From Bacteroidota bacterium (lineage in GTDB: Bacteria > Bacteroidota > Bacteroidia > JACCXN01), in contig JACCXN010000068.1 in the NCBI GenBank assembly GCA_013696965.1, forward strand, positions 1 to 27,392: DNA of 27,392 bases, written 5' to 3'. Below, one piece after another: positions 5,076 through 27,391 of this stretch; the stretch's first letter is position 1; the number at the start of each line of letters is the position of its first letter. The translations under genes were made by a program, and so were the position numbers. The notes beneath the pieces were generated by a model. That model made no database searches. It was not told where the DNA came from and was given only the letters and a program-made list of their open reading frames with translations.

Positions 5076-5503
5076 ATAAGCAAGCCTAGGGGAAAAGTTC
5101 ACCAAAGCCTTGTCTAACAAGCCGCACCGCCCTCTGCCTATCCTTCTGTATTTTTTTATTTTCCCCTCACGCACTTTTTTTAATTTAATTTAAGCCATTG
5201 CACACAATGCCACATTTACTTTTGCCCTTCCCACAAAGACCCTCCACACATTGCAAAAGTAAAAGAGGCATTTCCACCAACCCACACGTTTCTGCTTTAT
5301 ATTTTATAATATTTGTGATATAACCACACCTTAATTTTTTGTTATTCTATTATGAGAAATTAAAATAAACATTATGTTTGTTTATTTTATGTCTTAATTA
5401 TGCATCACCTTAAAATGACACAAATGGTCTACTTTAAATAATTGGTATGTTGAACGAGTAAGCTGAAAATCGAAAGAGTAAGCAAAAACTAAAATACAAA
5501 ATA
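5076..5503. other. gene-free leader of unit 2
   Basis: No gene is supported across these 428 bases. The first half is C-rich on the plus strand with long T tracts; the second half is A/T-rich and holds the promoter-like palindrome described separately. A short hairpin CTTGT-CTA-ACAAG lies near 5109-5121. Confidence 0.5.
5361..5389 (+). promoter_or_regulatory. palindrome around a TATGTTTG box upstream of the repeat protein
   Basis: TAAAATAAAC (5361-5370) and GTTTATTTTA (5380-5389) form a perfect 10-bp inverted repeat. Between and overlapping them is TATGTTTG (5373-5380), matching the Bacteroidota -7 consensus TAnnTTTG. No well-spaced -33 TTG was found, so this is a candidate promoter or operator about 115 bases before the gene. 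Confidence 0.35.
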
Positions 5504-5905
5504 ATGGCAAAAATATTTCAGGGCGACAGCACTTCTTCAAATAAAATCGTATTTACATTTGATGCTAAATACGTTTATCAAGGCGACAGTTCATCATCAA
5601 ATAAAAGGATATATACTTGGGACGGCAAGCACATTTACCAAGGTGATAGCACATCTTCAAATAAGAGATTGTATACATGGGATGGAAAATATCTTTACCA
5701 AGGTGATTCTACATCATCAAATAAACGACTTTATACTTGGGACGGAAAATACTTTTATCAAGGAGACAGTTCTTCTTCAAACAAAAGAATTTACACATTT
5801 GACGGTAAACATTTGTTTCAGGGAGATAGCACATCTTCAAATAAAATAATGTATACTTTTGATTCACCAATACCACCAGCAGTAATACTTGCTACAATTG
5901 CTTAA
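5504..5905 (+). CDS. protein built of six 20-residue GDSxSSNK repeats
   Basis: The 133-residue protein is almost wholly repeats: residues 5-124 are six units of exactly 20 residues with the pattern (Y/F)QGDS(T/S)SSNKR(I/L)YT(W/F)DGK(Y/H)x. Aromatic, Gly-Asp and Asp-Gly positions are fixed and the pattern suggests repeated beta-hairpins, as in other small beta-repeat proteins of Bacteroidota. There is no signal peptide. The C-terminus ends in a short hydrophobic tail (PIPPAVILATIA). The ATG at 5504 precedes the first repeat directly. Function is unknown; repeat number probably varies by slippage or recombination. A second, out-of-phase open frame across it is a shadow caused by the 60-bp periodicity. 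Confidence 0.8.
   Translation: MAKIFQGDSTSSNKIVFTFDAKYVYQGDSSSSNKRIYTWDGKHIYQGDSTSSNKRLYTWDGKYLYQGDSTSSNKRLYTWDGKYFYQGDSSSSNKRIYTFDGKHLFQGDSTSSNKIMYTFDSPIPPAVILATIA
5516..5875 (+). repeat. 6 x 60-bp tandem coding repeat
   Basis: Six in-frame 60-bp units encode the 20-residue repeats. Core blocks such as CAAATAA and GGCGACAG/GGTGATAG recur at 60-bp spacing with synonymous differences, so the array is not a very recent expansion. Confidence 0.8.
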
Positions 5906-5918
5906 CTTTAAAATAAAA

Positions 5919-6010
5919 ATGTCAACTGGTTTTTTAAACCAGAAATTTATTTAGAGTAGCGACAATATTGAAGTACTGTTGACATAAAAAGTGGAGACCA
6001 GAGACCACTT
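5919..6010 (+). other. nested hairpins between two small genes
   Basis: ATGTCAAC (5919-5926) pairs with GTTGACAT (5978-5985). Inside is CTGGTTT-TTT-AAACCAG (5926-5942), followed by an A/T-rich stretch, which could act as a weak terminator for the repeat protein gene. Next is AAGTGG...CCACTT (about 5989-6010). This could be a terminator plus a structured leader for the small gene at 6068. Confidence 0.35.
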
Positions 6011-6067
6011 ATCAAACGGGGCGAAATCGAAAAGCCAAATAAGTAGGAAAATTTAAACTGTAAAGCT

Positions 6068-7149: not shown

Positions 7150-7177
7150 AAAACATAAGGTATTAGGTTAGTAAATT

Positions 7178-7191
7178 CCCGCTTTCACGGG
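7178..7191 (-). promoter_or_regulatory. conserved CCCG/CGGG leader hairpin of paralog 1
   Basis: CCCG-CTTTCA-CGGG lies 29 bases upstream of the start codon at 7149. The same element with near-identical flanks (ATTCCCGC, CACGGG, TGAAT) stands at the same distance before the second paralog. It could be an mRNA leader hairpin or an operator. Confidence 0.5.
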
Positions 7192-7729
7192 TTGAATAAC
7201 CAAGACGTCATTGGTTTTGTAGTTGTGCAATCATTTTTTGGAAGTATTGATTTCTCCTATAACGGGCAGAATTTTCTATTTGTTACATCAGAAAATCAAC
7301 TTTCTTCAAAAGTTAAAACGCTCCGTCTATCGGTCAATAACTGCATGGTCTGTAGAGGTATTCGGGTAGAAAAATAATTTTATTTAATCTTTATTTTTCC
7401 GTTTTATTTAGGATAAATAATTGTCAATGTATTAAATCTTATGAATATAATATTTCAAATTTGTTAAATACTTCTGACCTAAGTATATAAGAGGTATTGA
7501 AAAAATCAATTACATTAGCAGCAATAAAAAAGCAAAAATAGCATAGCAAATAGGTAATTTTAGGATATAAAATAACAAAAATAAAGTTCAACTACCCATT
7601 TAGTTTATCCACCCAAAGGTAGGAATAAACTCATTTTTGGCTGGTGCTATGTGACAAACTGACCAAACAGAGGTGGCACACCATCTGATTTGACCGGCTT
7701 TTAAACTAAACTTTTACAAGAAAAAATTA
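7192..7729. other. gene-free, A/T-rich stretch before the DnaJ operon
   Basis: A 61-residue open frame at 7192-7377 has no convincing protein character. The stretch contains an imperfect stem-loop at 7602-7631 (AGTTTAT...ATAAACT with inner ACC/GGT) followed by CATTTTT. It probably carries the promoters of the diverging genes, but I could not pick a clear -33/-7 pair. Confidence 0.4.
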
Positions 7730-12189: not shown

Positions 12190-12657
12190 CTATAATTTTA
12201 AATAATGTAAAATTCTCTTTATGCATTCATCTTGATTTTTATGTACCTCTTTTTCCCAAAAACGAAAAACTATATAACCCATAGATCTCAGAACATCTTC
12301 GTTTTGTTTGTCCCTTTGCATATTCCTTTCGATTTTTGGAATCCAAAATTCTTTATTTGTTTTAATTTTTTTTTTCTTTTCTTCCCAGTTATAACCATGC
12401 CAGAATTCACCATCTATAAAAATTGCCAACTTGTATTTTTTTATGGAAATATCCGGTTTTCCAGGTAAGCTATTTTCATTAACTCTATATCGAATGCCTT
12501 TTGAAAATAGAGCTTTACGAAAAGCAATTTCGGGTTTAGTTCCTTTGCTTTTAATTTTTGACATTAATTGGCTCCTGTCCTTTGTAGTATAGAATCCATT
12601 TTCCTTTTTGAACCTAGGCACTTTAATATCTTTAGAATTAGAATCTTTACTTATCAT
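12190..12657 (-). CDS. vsr: Vsr-like very short patch repair endonuclease
   Basis: The 155-residue protein matches the Vsr family: DRSQLMSKIKSKGTKPEIAFR, then LPGKPDISIKKYKLAIF, FWHG, and a KIERNMQRD helix. Vsr nicks beside T:G mismatches that arise when 5-methylcytosine deaminates, so it usually accompanies a C5 methyltransferase, as here. The catalytic-type Asp69 (GKPD) and His87 (FWH) are present. The position of the first His of the E. coli HGCFWH motif is Asp82 (DGEFWH). The gene diverges from the DUF6471/methyltransferase pair with 268 bases between. It ends in TAG, showing that TAG is a normal stop here. Confidence 0.85.
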   Translation of the reverse strand: MISKDSNSKDIKVPRFKKENGFYTTKDRSQLMSKIKSKGTKPEIAFRKALFSKGIRYRVNENSLPGKPDISIKKYKLAIFIDGEFWHGYNWEEKKKKIKTNKEFWIPKIERNMQRDKQNEDVLRSMGYIVFRFWEKEVHKNQDECIKRILHYLKL

Positions 12658-12925
12658 AGTATTTTTAACAACAATAAATTATAAAATTAATAAGATTGTA
12701 AACATAGAATAGATAAGAATATTACCAATAAGAAATTGAAAAACTAATTTTATCAACATTTAGAATCCCAAAAATGGAAATAAAGTAAACAAATTTGGTC
12801 TTTTTAGGATCATTTTGTTGCAAATCAATCAATAAACCCCTTAAACACGATATTTTTATTAATGTCATGATTTTTGCATAAATGATAATTAAAATCTATT
12901 ATTGTAAAATATAAAATTATCAATT

Positions 12926-13210
12926 ATGGTTAATTGGAATGATAAAGTTAAACGATTGCTTAAGTCAGAATTAATTAAAAGAGGAATATCGAATACTACA
13001 CTGGCTTTGATGTTGAGAGAAATTGGAGTTGAAGAAACAAAGGGTAGTATTGATAGCAAAATAAGTAGAGGAAGCTTTAGTGCTTGTTTCTTTTTGCAAT
13101 GCTTATCAGTTATTGGATGTAGCAAAATTGAAGTTGAAGAGTATGAAAACAATGTTCTTATTGCTGCTGATACAAATGTTGAATACAAAATAGCTAATAA
13201 TGAAAAATAA
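12926..13210 (+). CDS. DUF6471-type small protein beside the methyltransferase
   Basis: The 94-residue protein begins with a Trp-Lys-rich helix (MVNWNDKVKRLLKSEL) and continues LIKRGISNTTLALML, GVEETKGSIDSKISRGSFSA and CFFLQCLSVIG. This fits my memory of DUF6471, a short domain often found beside DNA methyltransferases. The helix-turn-helix-like order (SNTTLALML...SIDSKISRG) would suit a DNA-binding controller of the restriction-modification genes, but that is inference. Its end overlaps the methyltransferase start by 11 bases, implying coupled translation. The 268-base divergent region toward vsr is very A/T-rich, and I see no clear operator. Confidence 0.75.
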   Translation: MVNWNDKVKRLLKSELIKRGISNTTLALMLREIGVEETKGSIDSKISRGSFSACFFLQCLSVIGCSKIEVEEYENNVLIAADTNVEYKIANNEK

Positions 13211-14561
13211 AACTATAAAATTTATTGACTTGTTCTCTGGGCTCGGGGGAATAAGGCTGGGCTTTGAAAATGCTTTTAAAACTAAAGGATTTAAGACAGA
13301 ATGTGTAATGACTTCTGAAATAAAACCTCATGCAATTGAAACATTAAATAAAAATTTTGAACACGGTTATTTTGTTGGCGATATTTTTAAAGTCGAAAAT
13401 GAATCAATTCCTGATTTTGATTTTTTATTAGGTGGTTTTCCATGCCAACCTTTTAGTGCTGGAGGCAAACGTCAAGGATTTCTTGACACCCGTGGTACTT
13501 TGTTTTTTGAAATAGAAAGAATCTTAAGAGATAAAAAACCTTATGGTTTTATTTTAGAAAATGTTGAGGGATTGGTAAAACATGATTTGGAAAACAAGAA
13601 GGACAAAACAGGAAGAACTTTAGCAACAATTATAGATAAACTAGAAAATGATTTAGGATACAAAGTTTCTTGGAAAATTTTTGATTCAATTGAATTCGGA
13701 TTGCCACAATCTCGAAAACGAATATTTATTGTAGGAACTAGAGAAAATAAAGTTGATTTGGAAGGTAATGATCCCGTATTTAAGACTTTGGATAGTATTT
13801 TAGAAAACGGATTAGAAAACTTGAAATCAAGTTTCGTTGATAAGTTGCTTTCCCATTTTGATATTTGCGATTTACATGGAAAATCTATTAAGGATAAAAG
13901 AGGTGGAAACAACAATATCCATAGCTGGGATATAGGATTGAAAGGGGAAATTACTGAAGAACAAAACTTATTACTAAATAAACTGTTTAAAGAAAGAAGA
14001 AGAAAAAAATGGGCAGAAGAAATCGGAATTGATTGGATGGATGGAATGCCATTAACTTTAAAACAGATTACCACATTTTTTGACTGTAACGTTAATGAAC
14101 TTGAAAAATTATTAAAAGATTTAACTCATAAAGGGTATTTAAAATTTGAATATCCTAAAAAATTAATCAAAGAAGAAACAAAAAGTGGAATAAAGACATA
14201 TAGGGAATATGATATTACAAAACCAAAAGGTTACAATATAGTAACAGGTAAATTAAGTTTTGAAATAAATAAAATTCTAGACCCAAAAGATATTGCCCCG
14301 ACATTGGTTGCTACTGATGTTTCTCGTCTTGTTGTTCCAGATGGGAAAGGGTTAAGAAGATTAACTATTCGAGAAGGACTAAGATTATTTGGATATCCGG
14401 AATGGTATAATATACCAACAAAAGAGTATGATGCTTTCGATTTATTAGGGAATACGGTTGCTGTTCCTGTTGTTGAACATGTAGCTTCAAAAATTGCTGA
14501 ACTTTATCCTAAAAACAAAGCAAATTATTCAACAGTTAATAACACACCTGTATGTTCATGA
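13200..14561 (+). CDS. type II C5-cytosine DNA methyltransferase
   Basis: The 453-residue protein has the ordered motifs of the family: I, FIDLFSGLGGIRLGF (8-22); IV, GGFPCQPFSAGG with catalytic Cys82; VI, ENVEGL; VIII, QSRKRIFIVG; IX, RRLTIREGLRLFGYP; X, NTVAVPVVEHVA. A long target-recognition region with GIDWMDGMPLTL lies between VIII and IX. It transfers a methyl group to C5 of cytosine in a short site. The convergent gene looks like an NgoBV-type endonuclease (GGNNCC specificity), so the same site is plausible but unproven. The start ATG lies inside the end of the DUF6471 gene. The last 37 bases overlap the endonuclease gene tail to tail. Confidence 0.93.
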   Translation: MKNKTIKFIDLFSGLGGIRLGFENAFKTKGFKTECVMTSEIKPHAIETLNKNFEHGYFVGDIFKVENESIPDFDFLLGGFPCQPFSAGGKRQGFLDTRGTLFFEIERILRDKKPYGFILENVEGLVKHDLENKKDKTGRTLATIIDKLENDLGYKVSWKIFDSIEFGLPQSRKRIFIVGTRENKVDLEGNDPVFKTLDSILENGLENLKSSFVDKLLSHFDICDLHGKSIKDKRGGNNNIHSWDIGLKGEITEEQNLLLNKLFKERRRKKWAEEIGIDWMDGMPLTLKQITTFFDCNVNELEKLLKDLTHKGYLKFEYPKKLIKEETKSGIKTYREYDITKPKGYNIVTGKLSFEINKILDPKDIAPTLVATDVSRLVVPDGKGLRRLTIREGLRLFGYPEWYNIPTKEYDAFDLLGNTVAVPVVEHVASKIAELYPKNKANYSTVNNTPVCS

Positions 14562-15211
14562 TAATTTTTAAGTACTTTTTGTAACCAATGTCCATTTGCA
14601 TGTCTTGTTTGAGGGTATTTATACCTGGTTTCATTTAATGCAGCTAAAAATTCCTCTTTAGATGCAAAAGGCTTGAATTTAGTTCTCTCAGAATACCAAG
14701 TTGAAGGACGAAGATTATAAATTACATTTTTCTTTTCTTGAACTTTTATTGGGTATGTTCCACTAGGGCACGCTAATTCCCATATTTTTTTTACCCAAAC
14801 ATCTTTAATTGTAATTACACTCCCCGACATTTGATAAGCAAATATTAAATAATCTGAATCAATTCTATAAGTGTTTTCTAAAAGTGAATTGCAATAGGAA
14901 TCAAAGTTTGCCAAATCAAAACCTGGACCTCGATCCCAGTCAAAAGATTTAACTTCTAATAATCCTTTCTTAAGATTTCCTTTGTTTAAATAAAAATCTG
15001 GAAAAACTTGAGAATTTACATTTTCTTCAAATTCTATATTTTCTTTTTTCATCCAAGCCTTTAACCATTCCTGTAGCAGATTACCTACTGTATCTTTAGT
15101 CTCTACAGAGATTGTTAAATCTTTCAGTGAAAAATTAATTACTGCTTTTTCTCCAATAATTTTATACTCATAAACAAGCTTATGATATAATTCCTGTGCT
15201 GTCAATTTCAT
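14525..15211 (-). CDS. NgoBV-like type II restriction endonuclease
   Basis: I start at the ATG at 15211 (MKLTAQELYHKLVYEYKIIG), giving 228 residues; an upstream in-frame ATG at 15310 would add 33 residues of poor character. Residues 70-90 hold a PD-(D/E)xK nuclease core: VFPDF (Asp72), then LLEVKSF (Glu86, Lys88). The opening and the segment DSDYLIFAY...KKIWEL match what I recall of the NgoBV family, whose prototype cuts GGNNCC. The gene is convergent with the methyltransferase and overlaps it by 37 bases, a compact restriction-modification arrangement. Nuclease fold confidence is high, the NgoBV name moderate, specificity low. Confidence 0.8.
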   Translation of the reverse strand: MKLTAQELYHKLVYEYKIIGEKAVINFSLKDLTISVETKDTVGNLLQEWLKAWMKKENIEFEENVNSQVFPDFYLNKGNLKKGLLEVKSFDWDRGPGFDLANFDSYCNSLLENTYRIDSDYLIFAYQMSGSVITIKDVWVKKIWELACPSGTYPIKVQEKKNVIYNLRPSTWYSERTKFKPFASKEEFLAALNETRYKYPQTRHANGHWLQKVLKNYHEHTGVLLTVE

Positions 15212-15471
15212 AAATACTTTGATCGATAGTTTACAAAGGTATTCAATTTTCATTGTTCTTTTATAAATTAGTGTATTTAAAGCAATTGGCATTAATTTAT
15301 AAAGGAACAATGAAATTTTGATGCAAAATACGGGAGTGATGCATAAAACCTTTCACCACAGGCGTAAGCCCTTCACAATTCCCGCCCCCTTTCTCACAAA
15401 TACCACAAATGTTATTTGTCAATAATCATTACTTGTATATTCTATTATCTTTAAAAAATCCTATGTTTGTG

Positions 15472-15479
15472 AAATTATG
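15472..15479 (+). promoter_or_regulatory. TATGTTTG, candidate -7 box of the HEPN/GmrSD operon
   Basis: TATGTTTG matches the Bacteroidota TAnnTTTG element 53 bases before the ATG at 15532. The 10-mer CTATGTTTGT is repeated exactly at 18051-18060 before the second methyltransferase. No well-spaced -33 element is evident. Confidence 0.35.
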
Positions 15480-15531
15480 AAAATTATTGGGAATGATTTG
15501 AATAACCCTGAACATCACTAAGACATAATTT

Positions 15532-16125
15532 ATGGACAGCTTAATAAGAATTACAAAAAATATCACGTTTGAGGATTTAAGGACAGGACGAAAATCACCT
15601 ATCGATGTTTATGAAGAACAAATGATCAGTTGGCTATTTAGACCTTTAGAACAACTAGCGACAGACAAGCAGAATTCATTTGAAAATGGCTATTCAATGT
15701 TAGGACTTGAACTTCTATTCTTTGAACCTCACGGGAAATATTTGTCTGGAGATACTATTGATAAAAGTGGTGAGTGTTTTAGGTACGGATTAGATCCTTT
15801 CTTGAATTATTTAGAACAAAATAATTTTATTGATAGCGAGGTATTACAAAAACTCAAGGCTACTAATTTTTATAAAATTTCTCGCTGTGGTATTTTTCAT
15901 GATATGACCATTAAATCAGGTTTATTAATTGATAGTATTCATTGTGGAGGTGAAAAAGTGTTTTATAATAGTCCGGTTAACAATGGCCTACTGATAAGTC
16001 CGTGGAATTTTCTTGCCGCGGAAAAAAAATACTTTGACAACTATATAACAGAATTAAAGTCTGACCAAACTTCTACAAAATATATAAACTTTGAAACGAC
16101 ATTTAATAATTTATTTAATTACTAA
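15532..16125 (+). CDS. HEPN-like protein of unknown family
   Basis: The 197-residue, mostly helical protein contains FYKISRCGIFHDMTIKSGLL, with Arg118 and His123 forming an R-x4-H motif as in HEPN nucleases. The setting (a helix with the motif, then small residues) also fits HEPN-like proteins. I do not recognise a named family, and only this one motif supports the call. There is no signal peptide or membrane segment. It is followed after 43 bases by the GmrSD-type gene in the same direction, so it is probably its partner or a second effector in one operon. If it is a HEPN RNase, mutation of Arg118 or His123 should abolish toxicity. Confidence 0.6.
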   Translation: MDSLIRITKNITFEDLRTGRKSPIDVYEEQMISWLFRPLEQLATDKQNSFENGYSMLGLELLFFEPHGKYLSGDTIDKSGECFRYGLDPFLNYLEQNNFIDSEVLQKLKATNFYKISRCGIFHDMTIKSGLLIDSIHCGGEKVFYNSPVNNGLLISPWNFLAAEKKYFDNYITELKSDQTSTKYINFETTFNNLFNY

Positions 16126-16168
16126 GAAAAAACACGACTACATAAAAGACAATAACAAAAAAAGAAAC

Positions 16169-17881
16169 ATGAGTTACATCCCAAAGACAATTAGTGAAGT
16201 TACTTCCGAGTATCTTAATAGGACAACTTTTTTACCTGCAATTCAAAGAGAATTTGTATGGGGGACTTACGGTATTGAGAAACTTTTCGACTCAATTATG
16301 GGAGACTTTCCTATTAGCACATTTTTGTTTTGGAAAATAAAAGAGGAAAACAAAAAAGAATGGACAGCTTACGAATTTCTTAGAGAATTTGACCAAGGAA
16401 CTCCGCACAATAAAGAAGCTTCTGTAACTGGTATCAATCAAGATATATATTTGGTACTTGATGGACAACAAAGGCTTACTTCATTGTTTATAGGACTGAA
16501 AGGCTCCTATCGTTACTTTTATTACCGCTGGACAAAGTGCAAACTTTACTTGAACATTTTAAAGGCTCCAATTAAAAGTGACAATCCCGAAGAATTTACT
16601 TATCAATTTCAGTTTAGAGAAAACGACATTGTAAACTCGAAAGACCCAAATCCACAGTATTGGTATTTAGTTGGCGATATTCTGAATTTTGACGATGCCG
16701 AAGATTCTAAGAAAGAAATAAAGGAAAGATTAAAGGATTTCACAGATGACCAAAAAGACACTGCTAACTCACATATTGGACGACTTCATTCAAGAATTCA
16801 TACCTCAAGACTTCTCAACTACTACGAAGAAAAATCACAGGACTACGATAAAGTCGTTGAAGCATTTATTAGAGCCAACACTGGTGGGGTAAAACTTGAA
16901 TACAGTGATATTTTGCTTTCAACTGCAACAGCAAAATGGGTAAACTTAAACGCGAGAGAAGAAATTCATTCTTTCACAGATAACATTAACGCAATTGGAA
17001 GTGGCTACTCTTTCGGAAAAGACTTTGTTCTTAAAGGTTGTCTGTATCTCACAGAAGATTTGCCTATTCAATACAAAGTGAAAAACTTTACAAGAACCAA
17101 TCTTGAAAAAATTGAAAACAATTGGGATAACATTACTGACAACATTGAAATGACTGTTCAACTAATGCACAAATTTGGTTTTAATGACAAGAGCTTAGTT
17201 GCAAAAATTGCTTTGCTTCCTATATCATTATACTTGGGCAAACTGAAACCAAAAAACTTTATAGATTCCACAGACAAGAACGATGTAAGAAATCAAAACA
17301 TCATTCAAAAGTGGATAATCATTACTTTACTGAAAAATGCGTTTGGTGGTTCTTCTGATACAATCTTAAAAAACCTTCAAGAAACAATTAACGCACAAAA
17401 CAACTATTCATTTTTCCCATTTGAAGCATTGAACAAACGCTTAAATATTGAGGCGACATTTAACGACACGGAAATTGAAAATCTACTTGCAACAAATTAT
17501 AGCACTAAATACAGCTATCTAATCTTATCGCTTTTGTATCCAGACAGGGACTGGAAAGGCAAAAAATTTCACGAAGACCATATATTTCCAAAGTCCGAAT
17601 TTACAGCGGCCAAGTTAAAGGCTCGTGGCTATGACACAAATATAATTTTAGAATACCAAAAGCATTTTAATTCAATTGGCAATCTTCAACTTTTGACAGA
17701 TTCTGAGAACCTTGAAAAAAGCGCAGAAGACTTTGAAACTTGGTTTTCAACTCGAGACTCTAACTTCAAGGAGAGAAACACTATTCCGACAATTAGCACT
17801 TACAATTTCGACAACTTTCTTGAATTCATTACCGAGAGAAAAAAACTTTTAGTGCAAAAATTCAAAGCATTTACCATATGA
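16169..17881 (+). CDS. GmrSD-type (DUF262 + DUF1524) modification-dependent restriction enzyme
   Basis: I choose the ATG at 16169 (MSYIPKTISEVTSEYL), 570 residues; the frame is open upstream to 16091, but that adds only Lys-rich spurious sequence. The N-terminal DUF262 domain has LPAIQREFVWG (22-32) and the nucleotide-binding LDGQQRLTSLF signature at about residue 90. The C-terminal DUF1524 domain has the HNH-type motif HEDHIFPKS (468-476). Fused GmrSD proteins are NTP-dependent type IV enzymes that cut modified DNA, classically glucosylated hydroxymethylcytosine of T-even phages. Together with two C5 methyltransferases nearby, it must not recognise plain 5mC here, or it would attack the host. 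Confidence 0.9.
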   Translation: MSYIPKTISEVTSEYLNRTTFLPAIQREFVWGTYGIEKLFDSIMGDFPISTFLFWKIKEENKKEWTAYEFLREFDQGTPHNKEASVTGINQDIYLVLDGQQRLTSLFIGLKGSYRYFYYRWTKCKLYLNILKAPIKSDNPEEFTYQFQFRENDIVNSKDPNPQYWYLVGDILNFDDAEDSKKEIKERLKDFTDDQKDTANSHIGRLHSRIHTSRLLNYYEEKSQDYDKVVEAFIRANTGGVKLEYSDILLSTATAKWVNLNAREEIHSFTDNINAIGSGYSFGKDFVLKGCLYLTEDLPIQYKVKNFTRTNLEKIENNWDNITDNIEMTVQLMHKFGFNDKSLVAKIALLPISLYLGKLKPKNFIDSTDKNDVRNQNIIQKWIIITLLKNAFGGSSDTILKNLQETINAQNNYSFFPFEALNKRLNIEATFNDTEIENLLATNYSTKYSYLILSLLYPDRDWKGKKFHEDHIFPKSEFTAAKLKARGYDTNIILEYQKHFNSIGNLQLLTDSENLEKSAEDFETWFSTRDSNFKERNTIPTISTYNFDNFLEFITERKKLLVQKFKAFTI

Positions 17882-18051
17882 CATGGAGAAAATAAAGAGG
17901 AACTTACATATCAACAAGCCAGTAAAATTTAATTTAATTTGTCGTAATTAATCAGTACGAAAAAGGAGGGTACACATAGATTGTAGGAAAGAAAACAATC
18001 ATAAATATTGATTAAACTTAAACTTCAACTTAATTCAATTGAATTTTTCCC

Positions 18052-18059
18052 TATGTTTG
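18052..18059 (+). promoter_or_regulatory. TATGTTTG, candidate -7 box of the methyltransferase/HD/ATPase operon
   Basis: TATGTTTG lies 20 bases before the preferred ATG at 18080, which argues against the longer upstream starts at 18008 and 18053. The same 10-mer CTATGTTTGT occurs at 15471. The -33 element is unclear. Confidence 0.35.
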
Positions 18060-18079
18060 TTGGACAAAATTTCGGGTTT

Positions 18080-19135
18080 ATGATTGGAGTTGAATTATTT
18101 GCAGGTGCGGGTGGTATGGCAACAGGAGCTGTTATGGCGGGTATTGATGTAAAGTTAGCAATTGAGAGTGATTCATGTGCCGCACAAACTTATTTAGCTA
18201 ATCATAAAAACACTACTGTTGTAATAGATGATATTCAAAATATAAAAGAGTATAAATTTGAAAGGAACGGAGATCAGGTGATTTTATTTGGTGGACCTCC
18301 TTGTCAAGGATATTCATACTCAAATAGGAAAACAAGGACTGCAAAGAATCCAAAGAACTGGTTATTTAAAGAATTCATTAGATCAATTATGCTTGTTGAT
18401 CCAGATTGGATTGTGATAGAAAATGTTCCTGGATTAAAGAAAATGGATAATGGCTTTTTCTTAAAGGCAATTTGCGATGATTTACGCAACTTAGAATACA
18501 CTCCTAATGTTAAGATTTTAAATGCAATAGATTTCGGTGTGCCACAAAAACGTGAGCGTATTTTTATAGTGGCATCTAAACATGGGATTGCTTTTGATTT
18601 TCCTATAGGCGAATTCGTTAATAAGCCAATAACCGTTTCAGAAGCTTTATTCGATTTACCATTTCTGCAAAATGGTTCTATGAAACCCAAATTAAAATAT
18701 CGTACAAAAGCCGTCTCTGAATATGCTAAGTCTTTGAGAGGGAATAAAAAAATCGTTACACAAAACTATGTAACAAAAAATTCTGACGTAATAGTCAATA
18801 GATATTCTCATATAAATCAAGGAAATAACTGGCGAGATATACCAGTTGAACTTATGGAAAACTATAAAGATCACACAAGGTGTCATAGTAGTATTTATAG
18901 ACGATTATCAGAAAATGAACCCGCTGTAATTATTGCTAATTATAGGAAGAGTATGCTAATCCATCCAACAGAAGATAGAGGTCTTTCCGTAAGAGAAGCA
19001 GCAAGATTACAATCGTTCCCAGATCATTACAATTTTATAGGCTCTTTAGATCAAAAACAGCAACAAGTTGGCAATGCAGTACCTCCACTTTTAGCTAAGG
19101 CTATATTCAAAAAAATAATAGAATATTCAGAATGA
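18080..19135 (+). CDS. second C5-cytosine DNA methyltransferase, first gene of a four-gene operon
   Basis: I start at ATG 18080 (MIGVELFAGAGGMATGAV), 351 residues, because motif I then sits at the N-terminus as usual; the frame is open from 18008. Motifs: I, ELFAGAGG; IV, GGPPCQGYSYSN with catalytic Cys75; VI, ENVPGL; VIII, VPQKRERIFIVAS; IX, GLSVREAARLQSFPDHY; X, QQVGNAVPPLLAKAI. It is only distantly similar to the 13200 enzyme, so it should have another specificity. No endonuclease gene pairs with it; instead it overlaps an HD-domain gene by four bases (ATGA), followed by an ATPase and a Rossmann-like protein. The likely role is to mark host DNA for that system. Confidence 0.9.
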   Translation: MIGVELFAGAGGMATGAVMAGIDVKLAIESDSCAAQTYLANHKNTTVVIDDIQNIKEYKFERNGDQVILFGGPPCQGYSYSNRKTRTAKNPKNWLFKEFIRSIMLVDPDWIVIENVPGLKKMDNGFFLKAICDDLRNLEYTPNVKILNAIDFGVPQKRERIFIVASKHGIAFDFPIGEFVNKPITVSEALFDLPFLQNGSMKPKLKYRTKAVSEYAKSLRGNKKIVTQNYVTKNSDVIVNRYSHINQGNNWRDIPVELMENYKDHTRCHSSIYRRLSENEPAVIIANYRKSMLIHPTEDRGLSVREAARLQSFPDHYNFIGSLDQKQQQVGNAVPPLLAKAIFKKIIEYSE

Positions 19136-20172
19136 GTTGGATAGATACCACATTTGAAAAGGCAATGAAAGAGCTTTTTATTAAATCTTTAGGTCAAGTG
19201 AAGGGAGAGCATCTGTATGGAGAATATACAAGTGTTCGAAATGCAATGGAAGGTGATAATTTTTTCAGAGAAATTAAAGGAAAAGAATCATTTCTATCTG
19301 ATCATAGCGAAAAACATATACAAGATGTTTTCGAGCGAGCATACAAAGTAATTGGTGAAGATGAATTTCAAAACTTAAATGCATATAACATTTATTGTCT
19401 TGCTCTTATGATTCTATTTCATGATGTTGGTAATATTTTCGGAAGAAAGGGCCATAATGCGATAGAGAAAATCGCTGAAATATATAATAAATATCGTAGT
19501 AATTTTCAAAATTACAGAGATGAGAAAAGAGTAATTACCCATGGGGCAAGTGCACATTGTGGAAAATCCAAGTCAGGGAATAATGATACTTTAAAAGATT
19601 TAAATAGTGCAAGCATAAAAGGTCAAAAAATAAATTTATGTGAAATAGCAGCAATTCTAAGATTCTCAGATGAACTTGCAGAAGGAAAACAAAGAACATG
19701 TTCTTTGTTGATTGAAAAAGGTATGTTAGATGACGAAAAAGGAAGTGAAATTTATCATAAATATGCACAAGTTTCAGATATAGAAATTGATAGAAATCTT
19801 CAAAGAATTTCAATTACTTATGATATCAATATTCCTGGAGATTTTGATCAAAAGGCACAAAAAGACTTTAAGGATTTATTGAATTTCACTTATTATCGAG
19901 CTGTGAAATTAGATACAGAAAGGAGATATAATAAATATTATTCAACCGTATTGAAACAGTTTAAATTTGTATCTGTTCAGTACAATTTCAGTATTGATGA
20001 AATTCCTATTGAAATTGATTTGAACAAGATTACTTTTGAAGATAGATATCCTATTCCTGGTGAAAAAGAAGAAGAATCTATCCAAGGTGCTGAAAAATAT
20101 TTTATCAATATGGATAATAATTACGAACTGTCCAAAATTATTGAAAATATTAATTCAAAGATTAAAAAATAA
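19132..20172 (+). CDS. HD-domain phosphohydrolase-like protein
   Basis: The 346-residue protein has the spaced metal ligands of the HD superfamily: His58 and His62 in FLSDHSEKHIQDV, His97-Asp98 in LFHDVGN, His108, His137/His142 in THGASAHCG, and Asp180 in LRFSDELAEG. HD proteins hydrolyse phosphoester bonds in nucleotides or nucleic acids. The second half (about 200-346) is a mixed alpha/beta domain I do not recognise. It overlaps the methyltransferase by four bases, and the ATPase gene follows after two, so the three are translationally coupled. A nucleotide- or nucleic-acid-degrading effector controlled by the ATPase is plausible but unproven. Confidence 0.8.
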   Translation: MSWIDTTFEKAMKELFIKSLGQVKGEHLYGEYTSVRNAMEGDNFFREIKGKESFLSDHSEKHIQDVFERAYKVIGEDEFQNLNAYNIYCLALMILFHDVGNIFGRKGHNAIEKIAEIYNKYRSNFQNYRDEKRVITHGASAHCGKSKSGNNDTLKDLNSASIKGQKINLCEIAAILRFSDELAEGKQRTCSLLIEKGMLDDEKGSEIYHKYAQVSDIEIDRNLQRISITYDINIPGDFDQKAQKDFKDLLNFTYYRAVKLDTERRYNKYYSTVLKQFKFVSVQYNFSIDEIPIEIDLNKITFEDRYPIPGEKEEESIQGAEKYFINMDNNYELSKIIENINSKIKK

Positions 20173-20174
20173 AT

Positions 20175-21887
20175 ATGGAAAATCCATTCGTTTTTGATAG
20201 ACCAAATAATATTAATATTAGTGAATTTATTCAATTCTACATAAAGGAAAATATCTATACTAGATTTCTTGAATCAACAAGAAATATTTTATTAATTGGT
20301 GTTAGAGGTAGTGGAAAAACATCTACTTTGAGGTATTATTCTTTCCCTGTTCAATTTGCTAATTCAGAAGTTGAAGATAAATATTCTGTTATAGGTATTC
20401 ACATACCCAGTAAACATGCGATTTTTGGCAAAAGAGAATATCTTCTATATGAAAATCAAAATAAACAAAGTGTTGTTATTGAACATTTTCTATGTATCAA
20501 TATAATTTCATGTATATGCGAAACATTTATTAGTACTCCGGGAAGTTTAGATTTAACTTCAGATATAGAAAAAAAGATTTTAAAAAATTTATCTTTTATT
20601 CTTGAATCTGATTTTCCAACTGAGAATTCTTTGTTTGAAAGCATTAAGCTTTTTGTTAACAAAGAAGCTAATTCAAGTCAAAGGAAATTAAATAATGATG
20701 ATTTTGAAAGCTTTATAGATTTCTCTTTTTCATTTAATAATACAATAATTCCTTTTTTAGAGCAATTAAAAAATATTCCTAATTTAGAAAATTCACATTT
20801 TTCTTTATTCTTTGATGATATCCAAGATTTAGGAAAAATTCATCAAGAAATTATAAATTCATGGATATCATATAGAGATAATAAGTTGTTCAGTTTTAAA
20901 ATTGCAACAGCAGATATAAAACCTTCATTTATTACTTCTACAGGTGGAGTAATTCTTGAAGGGCACGATTTTGTAAAGATTGATCTTACTAAAAGGTTAT
21001 ATAATAAAGAATCAGAATTTAGCAAGTTTGCAAGAGATGTAATAGCTAAAAGACTGATGATTGCAAAAATTGATGTTAGTGTTGAAGAATTTTTACCAGA
21101 AAGCGAAAGTTTTAGAAAAGGATTAGATGATGGTAAACTTAAAGCAAGAAAATTGGCTGCTATAAAATATCCAGATCCTAAGGGGACACAAATCAATGAT
21201 TATGTAGCAAAATATGGCAGGGCAATATACTTTAGAGAGCGAAATCCAAAAGCAAATTTACCTATTTATTCTGGTTTTGAGACTTTAGTAGATATTTCAA
21301 CAGGAGTAATTAGAAATCTCTTAACTCCAGCTTTTTTTATGTATGAAAAACAATTGTCAAATACTAATGGAATTTTTGTAAGGGAGATACCATCTGATGT
21401 TCAAAAAGAAATTATTTTAAATAGAAGTGAAACATTTTGGGAGAAAATAAAAGATATCGATTCAGAAATTGAAAATTGCCCAGAAGAGCTAGGAAAAAAA
21501 ATCAATAATTTTTTCAATCAATTGATGATTTATTTAAAGAAGAGGTTGAAGAATGAAACAATATCTGAACCACGCGCTTTAAATTTCATTATATCTCAAA
21601 TTGCAAATGAGGAAGAGCAAATCCAAATAGATGAAATCATTAATACTTCTTTGAAGAGCACCTTACTATATAAAAGGATGGTAGGTCACAAAGCAACTGG
21701 TGTTAAATTACCGTTGTATGTTCCAAATAGAATGATGCTTCCATTACATGGGCTTGATTCGCACGGTCAATATTCACATTTCCCAATTACTGGTCGTGCA
21801 TTTCTAGAGGCTGCTTTACAAAATAAAGAAATTCCATTTTTTGCTGACGAAGACGAAGCAACGAACCAACTTGAACTTATATTTTAA
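20175..21887 (+). CDS. ORC/CDC6-like AAA ATPase
   Basis: The 570-residue protein has a Walker A motif GVRGSGKTS (42-50) and a Walker B-like strand LFFDDIQDL (211-219). An N-terminal helix (SEFIQFYI) precedes the P-loop, as in ORC/CDC6-type and STAND-like ATPases of defence operons. Sensor-like polar residues follow in the strand FKIATADIKPS. The C-terminal half is helical, with a basic patch near YPDPKGTQINDY and the end segment GLDSHGQYSHFPITGRAF. It should be the NTP-driven switch of the operon. Its TAA is immediately followed by the ATG of the next gene. I could not match it to a named defence ATPase. Confidence 0.8.
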   Translation: MENPFVFDRPNNINISEFIQFYIKENIYTRFLESTRNILLIGVRGSGKTSTLRYYSFPVQFANSEVEDKYSVIGIHIPSKHAIFGKREYLLYENQNKQSVVIEHFLCINIISCICETFISTPGSLDLTSDIEKKILKNLSFILESDFPTENSLFESIKLFVNKEANSSQRKLNNDDFESFIDFSFSFNNTIIPFLEQLKNIPNLENSHFSLFFDDIQDLGKIHQEIINSWISYRDNKLFSFKIATADIKPSFITSTGGVILEGHDFVKIDLTKRLYNKESEFSKFARDVIAKRLMIAKIDVSVEEFLPESESFRKGLDDGKLKARKLAAIKYPDPKGTQINDYVAKYGRAIYFRERNPKANLPIYSGFETLVDISTGVIRNLLTPAFFMYEKQLSNTNGIFVREIPSDVQKEIILNRSETFWEKIKDIDSEIENCPEELGKKINNFFNQLMIYLKKRLKNETISEPRALNFIISQIANEEEQIQIDEIINTSLKSTLLYKRMVGHKATGVKLPLYVPNRMMLPLHGLDSHGQYSHFPITGRAFLEAALQNKEIPFFADEDEATNQLELIF

Positions 21888-22763
21888 ATGATAGAAACAG
21901 TCATAACTGTCTTAGGATGGGAGGATAGATTTCCATTAGGAATGGAAATAATTTTAAGTAAGTACAAAGTTAAAAGGATAGTATTAATCTCTTTCATTGA
22001 TTATTGTTCTATGGATAAAATGGAAGACAACAAAAAAAACCTTTTGGAAAATTGTGCTATGGAAAAAATTGAAGTTGTAGAGGTCAATTTAGAATATTCT
22101 AATTCTATAAATAATTGGAAGTGTCTAGATCAATTCTTTGAAAAAGAAACAGAAAATATCGAATATTTACTTAACATTACTACAATTCCTCGAGAAACTA
22201 TTTGGGCATTACTGTTTTTCCTTAGACAGAAAAATAGTCATATTAACTATATCTATTTCAAACCAGAAACTTATTGTGATGGTTGGCTCACTAAAAATTA
22301 TAAAAATCCAAGGTTATTATTCAAGCACTCAGGTGTGTTTGAATTGGATAAGAAATTAGCTCTATTTATTATTACTGGATTTGATGATAGCCGTCTGGAT
22401 TCACTTATAGAATATTATGAACCTAGTAAAATTGTTGTTTTTAGCCAAAGGGGGAATCAATTCCATAATATGGATAGAAATAAATACATTAAAAAAAGTA
22501 ATTCATTTGAATCCGAAATAGTTGAATTTGATAGTTATGATGTAGAAGAAGCAACAAAAATTTTGAATGATACGATTATAAAATACGGAGATTCAAATAT
22601 TATTATATCATCTCAAGGTCCTAAATTATCTTCACTCAGTACGTATAAAAACCATCTTTTACATGATAGTATAGCTTTTGCATATGTACCTGCTCAAGAT
22701 TTTAATCTTGAATACTCCAAAGGCATAAACCCTGATTATATTGATGGAAAATTGGAGATTTGA
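21888..22763 (+). CDS. two-domain Rossmann-like protein, possibly CARF-like
   Basis: The 291-residue protein has two alpha/beta domains. The first opens ETVITVLGWEDRFPLGMEI, followed by strands RIVLISF, KIEVVEVNL and YLLNITT. The second starts near residue 155 with LALFIITGFDDSRLDSLIEY, followed by KIVVFSQRGNQF and NIIISSQGP. Strand-loop-helix units with Gly/Asn/Thr-rich loops resemble nucleotide-sensing CARF and related Rossmann domains, but no single signature is decisive. The ATG directly abuts the ATPase stop codon, so the two proteins are made together and probably interact. No membrane segment or nuclease motif is visible. The family is not recognised. Confidence 0.7.
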   Translation: MIETVITVLGWEDRFPLGMEIILSKYKVKRIVLISFIDYCSMDKMEDNKKNLLENCAMEKIEVVEVNLEYSNSINNWKCLDQFFEKETENIEYLLNITTIPRETIWALLFFLRQKNSHINYIYFKPETYCDGWLTKNYKNPRLLFKHSGVFELDKKLALFIITGFDDSRLDSLIEYYEPSKIVVFSQRGNQFHNMDRNKYIKKSNSFESEIVEFDSYDVEEATKILNDTIIKYGDSNIIISSQGPKLSSLSTYKNHLLHDSIAFAYVPAQDFNLEYSKGINPDYIDGKLEI

Positions 22764-24458: not shown

Positions 24459-24761
24459 ATGGCTTTAGGAACAAAAATCAGATACTTTAGAAATTTAAAA
24501 GGGTGGAGTCAGGATGTTATGGCTGATAAATTAGATATATCGTTACCAGCCTATTCAAAAATAGAAAGAGACATAACAGATGTTAGTTTTTCAAGATTAA
24601 ATCAAATTTGTAAAGTTCTTGGAATAACCTTAATAGAATTGCTTTCCTATCCTTCAAAATCAACAGACCAAAATAATCTACTGAAAACATTAGCAGAAAA
24701 GGAAAAAGAAATAATTAAACTTCAAAAGAAAATAATTGAACTTTTAGAGAAGAAGAAATAA
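24459..24761 (+). CDS. XRE-family helix-turn-helix regulator with C-terminal coiled coil
   Basis: The 100-residue protein has a Cro/C1-type helix-turn-helix in residues about 5-62: IRYFRNLKGWSQDVMADKL, then ISLPAYSKIERDITDVS and LNQICKVLGITLIELL. A short coiled coil (70-98, LAEKEKEIIKLQKKIIELL) should give dimerisation. It probably binds the palindromes in the upstream divergent region and controls itself and the small minus-strand genes. The ATG at 24459 gives the standard N-terminal spacing. It is the last gene of the island before the second paralog, and convergent with it. Confidence 0.85.
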   Translation: MALGTKIRYFRNLKGWSQDVMADKLDISLPAYSKIERDITDVSFSRLNQICKVLGITLIELLSYPSKSTDQNNLLKTLAEKEKEIIKLQKKIIELLEKKK

Positions 24762-24906: not shown

Positions 24907-25707
24907 TCAAAACACCTTCTCCAACCTCATAGCATTCTTTGCAGCAAGCAAATAAAACCCTCCATTTATCTTCTGGTAAAACTCAATCCCTAAACAAGCT
25001 ATTACTCCGACAGTAGCGGGAATAACCGGAGAACCTGGAATAGAACTTACAATAGACATATTAGCCAAAGTGCTGCCACCCAAAGGGGTGTAATCACTAT
25101 AAGAAATATTGTTTTTAGAATTTATTTCAGGATTAACCGGCCTGTACCCTTTTAAAGCAGGGTTATAAGTATAATCAGAAAGCACTGTAATTGCATTAAT
25201 AATTCTAAAATGGGAAGCACTTTTTGGAGAAGTAATAAAATTATTCGTTTTAAAGACCGGAATAGTTATGGTAACCTCATTACGCCCTGCATTGGCAGAA
25301 ATATCATAAGGAGCAGTAAAAACACCTCCAAAGGCAGTGTCAGAATTAAAATCAAAACCTTCAATATTATTGCCGTTGGCTAAAAACTCAAGACTTCTTT
25401 CTCCCCTAATTCCATTTCCATGTTCAATTACTTTTTTAAGTTGTCCGGTAAGCCTTGCAGAAATGTACTTGCCTCCCATATCCTTGATAATTTCACCAAG
25501 ACCCAAACGAAAAGCTTTGCCGGCCATTGAGCAGCCACCAAATTCCATCATGTTTTCCCGGTTTCGTTTAAAAGCTGGAGACGTTTTAATTCTTTGCTTA
25601 CTCAGTCTGGATATCTCTTTTACATAATCCACACCGTCTTTGGAATAAAAAGCTAAGTTTCCTATTTTTCCATGAAGTTTGATAATACCTTTTTGTTTTG
25701 CGCACAT
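24907..25707 (-). CDS. MCA-x-QKG family protein of unknown function, paralog 2
   Basis: This 266-residue protein begins MCAKQKGIIKLHGKIGNLAF and shares the whole layout of the 6349-7149 product, including PAFKRNRENMMEFGG, the segment RNEVTITIPVF, and the end YLLAAKNAMRLEKVF. The two are the same length and orientation with clear nucleotide similarity at the 3' end. They are about 18 kb apart and bracket the defence genes. Function is unknown. The genes may be passive landmarks, or long direct homologies that allow the island to be deleted or exchanged by recombination. Confidence 0.8.
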   Translation of the reverse strand: MCAKQKGIIKLHGKIGNLAFYSKDGVDYVKEISRLSKQRIKTSPAFKRNRENMMEFGGCSMAGKAFRLGLGEIIKDMGGKYISARLTGQLKKVIEHGNGIRGERSLEFLANGNNIEGFDFNSDTAFGGVFTAPYDISANAGRNEVTITIPVFKTNNFITSPKSASHFRIINAITVLSDYTYNPALKGYRPVNPEINSKNNISYSDYTPLGGSTLANMSIVSSIPGSPVIPATVGVIACLGIEFYQKINGGFYLLAAKNAMRLEKVF

Positions 25708-25735
25708 AACACATGAATTTAGAAGTTAAATAATT

Positions 25736-25749
25736 CCCGCTCTCACGGG
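25736..25749 (-). promoter_or_regulatory. conserved CCCG/CGGG leader hairpin of paralog 2
   Basis: CCCG-CTCTCA-CGGG lies 29 bases upstream of the start codon, matching the element at 7178-7191 in sequence, spacing and flanks while the surrounding DNA differs. Confidence 0.5.
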
Positions 25750-25869
25750 CTGAATTAAAAACTTTTAACTAAGTTATGTAGCTATATTATCATAAAGAGA
25801 ATTGTTTCTCTTTAAAACGGAAATGCTTTTCTTTTGGTTACATTATTTCATTTAAATTCTATGACAGTA

Positions 25870-25968
25870 TCGGGTAAATGTCGGGTGCCATTCGGGTGGG
25901 ACTCGGGTCGTATTCGGGTGCCATGCGGATGGCAGTCGGGGTACAGTCGGGACACAGTCGGGTTTAAG
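25870..25968. repeat. nine TCGGGT-like boxes at exact 11-bp spacing
   Basis: Boxes start at 25870, 25881, 25892, 25903, 25914, 25925, 25936, 25947 and 25958. Six read TCGGGT; the others are GCGGAT, TCGGGG and TCGGGA. The five spacer bases vary (GCCAT twice). A period of 11 is not a multiple of 3, so it is not protein-driven, and it matches about one helical turn. An A/T-rich TATATAAT-like stretch follows at about 25970. An array of aligned protein-binding sites upstream of a transcript is the simplest reading. Confidence 0.75.
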
Positions 25969-26274
25969 AGTATATAATAGCAATATTTTTCAATAACTAT
26001 TAGCCTTGAAACTAGAGAATGACCGGAAACAGCCAGCCCACGGGAAAAGCACATTTCCAATTCACACTGCCAACCACGCAAACCAAAAATTGTAAAAGAG
26101 CTTCTCCCTTTCCTCCCCAAAGAAAATTAAATTAAAAAAATCCCCCCTCAAAAATAAAAAAATACCCAACTCGCACTAGCCATGCAAAGTATACCACTCC
26201 AAGTTATTACTCATTCATGAAAGCCTTTAGCAGAGCAGCTTGTATCCCCATTTATTACCAAAAGGCCAGCTTAT
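25969..26274. other. gene-free trailer of unit 2
   Basis: No gene is supported. It holds C-rich and A-rich tracts, including the mirrored A/T tracts at 26124-26140 and 26151-26165 that match the unit's other end. An antisense open frame of 90 codons is explained by the GC-rich boxes. Confidence 0.5.
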
Positions 26275-26401
26275 AACATTGCATATTCGCAAGTGGCGGT
26301 CTAGGTGCTCTATTGCGAAGCCTTGTATTTCTATTAACTTTACTGCTCACGGTTTTTGGTTCGGTGCAATAATCGCCACCAGCGTATATGCAAAAAACGT
26401 T
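26275..26401 (+). repeat. attC-like palindromic repeat, copy C
   Basis: This 127-bp repeat runs from AAC to GTT, close to copy A. The left arm reads GCATATTCGC and the right arm, read in complement, GCATATACGC. Copy A has GCATATAAGC in both, so the A:T pair at the eighth position has become C:G on both arms, a compensatory change that supports selection on the stem. Confidence 0.75.
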
Positions 26402-26531
26402 GCCCGCCAGCATAGGGTTTCGGACCGCTTTTTTTTAGGACAACTGTGAAGCGAGCATATCCATGTTAGGGCCGAATCGCACCAGTACCCATGACTTGAC
26501 CAACATTTATCAGGCCCCAAGGAACTTTCAG

Positions 26532-26701: not shown

Positions 26702-26760
26702 GAACCTGCCCCAGAACCCCTGAAAAACATGGAAATTTGCATATAAGGAAATTATCGGGT

Positions 26761-26823
26761 AACTTTAAGAGAGAGAAATTCTTAAATAAAAAAATTCATT
26801 ACGAATTTCTCTCTCTTAAAGTT
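26761..26823. repeat. 21-bp perfect inverted repeat (long hairpin)
   Basis: The 21 bases at 26761-26781 (AACTTTAAGAGAGAGAAATT and a final C) are exactly reverse-complementary to 26803-26823, with a 21-base A/T-rich loop. The stem is far longer than an intrinsic terminator and has no flanking T run. Confidence 0.75.
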
Positions 26824-26867
26824 AGTTGTTATTGCCCTTTGACATATTGGTTTAGGCGCGGCGGGCT

Positions 26868-27033: not shown

Positions 27034-27235
27034 GGCCTGACCTAAACGGGCTGACCCTCGGGACGATTTAACTTTTATTGGTTCTCCCTTTTTCGGTAGC
27101 TCGTCATGAGCGCATCACTGCTAAAGCAAGATTTGGCCTGACCTAAATGGGCTGACCCTCGGGACGATTTAACTTTTATTGGTTCTCTCTTTTTCGGTAG
27201 CTCGTCAGAAGCGCATCACTGCTAAAGCAAGGCAA
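27034..27235. repeat. 101-bp tandem duplication
   Basis: Units starting GGCCTGACCTAAA at 27034 and 27135 are nearly identical over about 97 bases up to GCTAAAGCAAG, differing at a few positions (ACGGG/ATGGG, CTCCC/CTCTC, CATGAG/CAGAAG). Confidence 0.8.
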
Positions 27236-27264
27236 GGCCAGACCTTGTCAAAATGCCGGCGGGC

Positions 27265-27391
27265 AACATTGCATATAAGCAAGTGGCGGTCTAGGTACTC
27301 TATTGCAAAGCCTGGAATTTCTATTAACTTTGCTGCTCGCGGTTATTGGTTCGGTGCTGTAATCGCCACCTGCATATATGCAAATAACGTT
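27265..27391 (+). repeat. attC-like palindromic repeat, copy D
   Basis: This 127-bp repeat from AAC to GTT ends one base before the window edge. It is nearly identical to copy A in the left arm and loop, with a single stem mismatch (TAAGC against TATGC) and minor loop changes. Confidence 0.75.

Follow-up and report, generated by a model that had tools for sequence, protein, structure and literature searches.

Several described systems contain arrays of short direct repeats. The Apl protein of phage 186, which is both an excisionase and a repressor, binds 6-bp direct repeats that are 10-11 bp apart; one monomer binds per helical turn with strong cooperativity, both at attP and between promoters, and the excisionases lambda Xis and P2 Cox also bind repeats that are one turn apart (PMC7498355). 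The PHO boxes bound by PhoB/PhoP consist of 11-nt direct-repeat units, in which about seven positions are conserved and four are free, and are occupied head to tail (PMC4415409). ParR of plasmid R1 is cited in PMC9426499 as binding the 11-bp direct repeats of parC. Finally, arrays of the heptamer TAACTGA are present in Beggiatoaceae, Cyanobacteria and some Bacteroidetes (PMC4679880).

The array considered here is located in a window of 27,392 nucleotides (the whole stretch of DNA that was analysed) from a Bacteroidota bacterium. The features that surround it are as follows.

24459-24761, + strand: gene for an HTH_3 (XRE-like) regulator beyond paralog 2; of the DNA-binding proteins encoded around the array, it is the closest
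24907-25707, - strand: paralog 2, a 266-aa orphan protein (MCAKQKG...), with the array 163-261 bp upstream of its ATG
25728-25751, - strand: short CCCGTGAGAGCGGG hairpin block just 5' of the paralog 2 ATG
25870-25968, + strand: nine-unit 11-bp array, box TCGGGT (six exact, three variants) with variable spacers
25870-25950, + strand: long-hairpin stretch centred at about 25909-25911, with the strongest pairing between TGCCATTCG and CGGATGGCA
26010-26410, + strand: non-coding module that terminates in a 128-bp attC-like repeat and is found again where other gene cassettes of the genome end; it bounds the array on the right

The array shares with the Apl, Xis and Cox sites the short direct-repeat boxes placed one helical turn (10-11 bp) apart, although Apl sites have five to seven boxes in a row near promoters and the window array has nine TCGGGT-type boxes. 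The likeness extends to homologous loci, where a small divergent gene encoding a helical protein, and sometimes a tyrosine recombinase, lies beside the array. Unlike the phage systems, however, the window's genome lacks such a small protein and no integrase lies beside the window array. PHO boxes resemble the array in having two or more 11-nt direct-repeat units, but a PHO box usually has a small number of units and is one of many in the genome, which together form a regulon, whereas the window array has nine units at one site. As far as R1 parC is described in the source cited above, the likeness is an 11-bp direct-repeat array upstream of a gene, and the difference is that the window array lies in a chromosomal cassette and that no parM or parR was recognised among the neighbouring proteins searched. 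The TAACTGA arrays, too, consist of short direct repeats in intergenic DNA upstream of genes and occur sporadically in several lineages, Bacteroidetes among them, but their 7-nt units are contiguous, without spacers, and they are not phased at 11 bp. Because the cognate protein or the set of sites was sought and not found, we do not assign the array to the Apl/Cox or the PHO-box class.

The nine units are, in order, TCGGGTAAATG, TCGGGTGCCAT, TCGGGTGGGAC, TCGGGTCGTAT, TCGGGTGCCAT, GCGGATGGCAG, TCGGGGTACAG, TCGGGACACAG and TCGGGTTTAAG. The initial annotation had described nine TCGGGT boxes here; the strict 11-bp step is correct, but only six of the boxes are exact (starting at 25870, 25881, 25892, 25903, 25914 and 25958), and boxes 6-8 are GCGGAT, TCGGGG and TCGGGA. 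It had also placed the boxes on nearly the same side of the helix. This is an approximation, since with a helical turn of 10.5 bp each unit is rotated by about 17 degrees relative to the one before, which adds up to about 137 degrees across the nine-unit array. The description of the DNA as gene-free is a fair one, and so is the statement that the array is neither coding nor CRISPR-like. The single open reading frame over the array, 90 aa on the minus strand (25848-26120), continues into the repeated non-coding module, and the 11-bp units differ from those of a CRISPR array, which has repeats of about 21-48 bp and spacers of similar length. Rfam has no match at the array, and comparison with the DNA of phages and plasmids gave only short chance matches.

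A pattern of three phased boxes with up to three mismatches has six matches in the window and none in 100 dinucleotide shuffles, and a chance origin of the array is therefore excluded. Further TCGGGT arrays with the 11-bp step, for which a search of the same genome had been proposed, are not there: a four-box pattern with up to three mismatches matches only the 25870-25968 array in the 3.86-Mb genome, which also means that no additional site of a PHO-like regulon was found with this pattern. These statements about the genome are based on pattern searches and a 349-kb sample.

The distribution of mismatches within the units is uneven. Columns 1-5 (TCGGG) have two mismatches in 45 cells across the nine units and column 10 is A in eight of nine units, while columns 7-9 are nearly random, so the spacers are variable as first described; the nine units contain no indels. 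The TCGGG box was picked after inspection, but a simulation of even decay that was allowed to take its best five-column window never produced so uneven a pattern. We read this as evidence for constraint on both the box and the phase. The same result bears on the suggestion that the array is a non-functional minisatellite, in which an 11-bp unit was amplified by slippage, underwent a few 33-bp duplications and decays at a position that is upstream of a gene by chance. A simple minisatellite should diverge evenly along its unit, whereas the mismatches of this array cluster in the spacers, an outcome that simulated even decay did not give; nine units with zero indels also speak against such an origin. 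However, some recent duplication is visible: unit 5 is an exact copy of unit 2, and besides the 11-bp array at 25870-25968 Tandem Repeats Finder reports a 33-bp superperiod. The array is, moreover, single-copy in the genome and missing from paralog 1, and many other TCGGG arrays with an 11-bp period are plain minisatellites, some of them within open reading frames. On balance, we consider a minisatellite origin rather unlikely.

Control searches in viral contigs indicate which properties of the array deserve weight. Four consecutive TCGGG boxes occur 86 times at 11 bp, 78 times at 10 bp and seven times at 13 bp, and the reversed box GGGCT gives 75 stretches at 11 bp. The reversed box is thus nearly as frequent as TCGGG in these contigs, and we rejected a TCGGG-specific class of arrays. 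Arrays with three distinct spacers display a different pattern: at 11 bp, 38 of 90 and 29 of 74 stretches are of this kind, compared with two of 78 at 10 bp, a difference that also argues against the minisatellite explanation. Freedom of the spacers is therefore tied to the 11-bp step and not to the box, and since TCGGG is not special in viral contigs, our claim rests on the period together with this freedom. In a strict exact-box test on 2.9 Mb of unselected DNA, period 11 was not clearly enriched for arbitrary boxes. A general placement between divergent genes was also discarded, as the Bacteroidota TCGGG arrays include two divergent, six convergent and eight tandem cases; such placement does hold for one genome, G250. 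Some viral contigs have two inverted TCGGGT arrays with the 11-bp step, 330-370 bp apart, that flank AT-rich DNA (L135, 6779-7210; L205, 10666 onward; L166, 5450-5820; L193, 2781-3160), and these pairs are candidate replication origins or control regions.

The gene next to the array belongs to a family with few clues to its function. The paralog 2 protein has no match in Pfam, NCBIfam or PHROG, and its structure model (pLDDT 45) is too poor for use. A second copy in the window, paralog 1, is 61% identical to it, and the CCCGTGAGAGCGGG hairpin is kept before the ATG of both (25728-25751 and 7150-7200). Homologues of paralog 2 are present in 45 of the 395 genomes of the class sampled, and the DNA upstream of 58 homologues was examined. 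Between -420 and -120, self-similarity at lag 11 averages 0.48 in these 58 regions compared with about 0.39 at other lags. Compared with dinucleotide shuffles, 15 of the 58 regions are significant at lag 11 (p<=0.01); other lags give 0-5 such regions, except lag 22, a multiple of 11, with nine. Similar 11-bp arrays are also present in other non-coding segments of the same loci, at a lower rate (12 of 182 control segments; Fisher 1.9e-4 against 15 of 58).

The boxes of these upstream arrays differ by lineage. The TATAC type is the most common (L434, L475 and L455 among them), and the others include TCGGAGTATCC (L449), GGGACATCTCT (L453), CCCGTACTTGA (L464) and CGGGTAA (L465); unrelated box types sit at a similar distance from the gene. 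About ten box types were counted among the 15 loci, which are not independent because the TATAC-type loci share descent. The initial annotation had asked for checks on a link to the MCA-x-QKG genes and on arrays in relatives, and both checks have a mixed outcome. The statistical enrichment supports the link, but the closest homologues do not: no array precedes paralog 1 or the eight other homologues that are at least 35% identical. Likewise, arrays do occur upstream of remote homologues, but with other boxes.

Many of the homologous loci have an additional gene. Their arrays lie between the paralog 2 homologue and a divergent gene for a 62-70-aa protein, and in many TATAC-type loci the start codon of this small gene marks the edge of the array. 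The protein has no Pfam family and a fold search of its model gave no match; a relative from a viral contig is predicted, with moderate confidence, to be all-helical. Six of nine members of the small protein match phrog_575 ('Cox-like excisionase and repressor') weakly, with a best E of 0.0018, and by sequence the protein may thus bear a weak resemblance to Cox-type excisionase/repressors. Tyrosine recombinases adjoin the small gene in L447, L491 and L501. In two of these, L491 and L501, the small gene has neither a MAxQKG neighbour nor an 11-bp array in front of it, and therefore the array goes with the gene pair. The small protein beside the array is the likely binder in many of the homologous loci. 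The profile of this protein (A1) found no member in the window's genome (G000), and a search of the same genome for Cox-like proteins gave only noise (phrog_575, E 0.15, with internal stops). No evidence connects the HTH_3 regulator at 24459-24761 with binding to the array, and no promoter was established between the array and paralog 2.

The strict phase, the conserved box, the free spacers, the upstream position and the enrichment at remote homologues make a cooperative binding array the best-supported reading. The proposal in the initial annotation of such an array is thus supported in part, by these five properties, and we infer from them protein binding, cooperativity and the choice of paralog 2 as the target. 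More specifically, we tentatively suggest, at a strength that falls a little short of probable, that the array serves as a cis-acting operator for paralog 2, similar in kind to those of Apl and PhoB. A DNA-binding protein would occupy the 6-bp boxes head to tail, with one monomer in each box, and one monomer per helical turn would build a short filament on the array. This filament would control transcription of paralog 2 and possibly also of anything that leaves rightward.

A broader version of the operator reading, which we regard as unlikely, is that the MAxQKG orphan family repeatedly gains its own phased 11-bp operator, with a box that differs by lineage and in most cases accompanied by a very small, divergently encoded Cox-like regulator. 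The window array would then be a nine-box form whose regulator was lost or exchanged, and the whole would be a self-contained control module that arises recurrently and quickly changes its DNA specificity. If the operator reading is true, a large Bacteroidota family of orphan proteins (45 of 395 genomes, with the phylum taken from related loci) is under fast-changing, helically phased operators. In that case, the array and the 62-70-aa protein would provide a handle on the regulation of genes annotated without function, in the form of testable protein/operator pairs. If it is wrong, 11-bp arrays with free spacers would still be a recognisable class that is apart from ordinary minisatellites.

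The plus strand of the array can also be read as a hairpin. Its RNA fold is -46 kcal/mol with a z of -5.9, and the DNA fold has a z of -4.2 (both against dinucleotide shuffles), whereas the minus-strand fold is not significant; when the spacers were permuted among the units, the observed energy was reached in 0 of 500 cases. These values would fit an element that works as folded RNA or single-stranded DNA, with UCGG boxes paired across the two arms. Since 11 bp correspond to one turn of A-form RNA, the direct repeat would then be just the outward sign of a hairpin with that period. Explicit two-armed 11-bp hairpins in G250, Sphingobacterium wenxiniae and G023 are consistent with this explanation. 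However, many of the base pairs are of the G-U type and are a consequence of the box sequence, and neither a U-tract terminator nor evidence of transcription was found. In G250, each of the seven hairpin arrays for which both flanks are available separates divergent genes, a position that no single transcript has to cross. Most other 11-bp arrays tested fold no better than shuffles, and because they lack the hairpin, it is kept as a rival explanation and a quite improbable one.

The region to the right of the array raises another alternative. A gap of 42 bp separates the array from the 26010-26410 module, and copies of this module elsewhere in the genome follow unrelated single genes and end in the 128-bp attC-like repeat. 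Elsewhere in the genome, an integron-integrase-like gene adjoins one of these modules. The array could thus be a site for a directionality factor at a cassette boundary, or else a parC-like centromere wrapped by an adaptor protein. Precedents exist for both, in the one-turn repeats bound by excisionases (PMC7498355) and in the 11-bp direct repeats that R1 ParR is cited as using (PMC9426499). The other copies of the module, however, have no comparable array in front, and no partition gene was recognised among the window proteins searched. A role in recombination or partition is accordingly very improbable. The same copies led us to reject the array as a part of the module, and the connection with attC-like repeats that was to be checked according to the initial annotation does not hold.

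The window and its genome display several other features. The 128-bp attC-like repeats close gene cassettes at 257-383, 26275-26401 and 27249-27391. The integron-integrase-like gene encodes a tyrosine recombinase near 131579-133153 of another contig (G000:C44, L562), which matches TIGR02249 with an E of 2e-66, under the cutoff, and carries an N-terminal extension of about 240 residues; these repeats and this gene probably constitute a chromosomal integron. A 101-bp unit is present in two tandem copies, 95% alike, at 27034-27231, and at 26756-26830 TAACTTTAAGAGAGAGAAATTC and its complement form an inverted repeat around an AT-rich centre. An open reading frame at 5504-5905 consists of repeats of about 20 aa (YQGDSTSSNKR-YTWDGK) and is flanked by Rfam DUF805-type RNAs at 5453-5484 and 5986-6053. 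A defence-like stretch at 12190-22763 includes an NgoBV-type restriction enzyme, a trio of HD-CE, ORC-CDC6-like and HFX_2341-like genes and, by eye, two cytosine methyltransferase-like open reading frames and one that is Vsr-like. Finally, nine contigs of G250 (C1, C2, C7, C8, C12, C15, C16, C23 and C24; L542-L556) contain dispersed two-armed hairpin repeats of TTCGR with the 11-bp step, and every copy with two known flanks has divergent genes on its sides.
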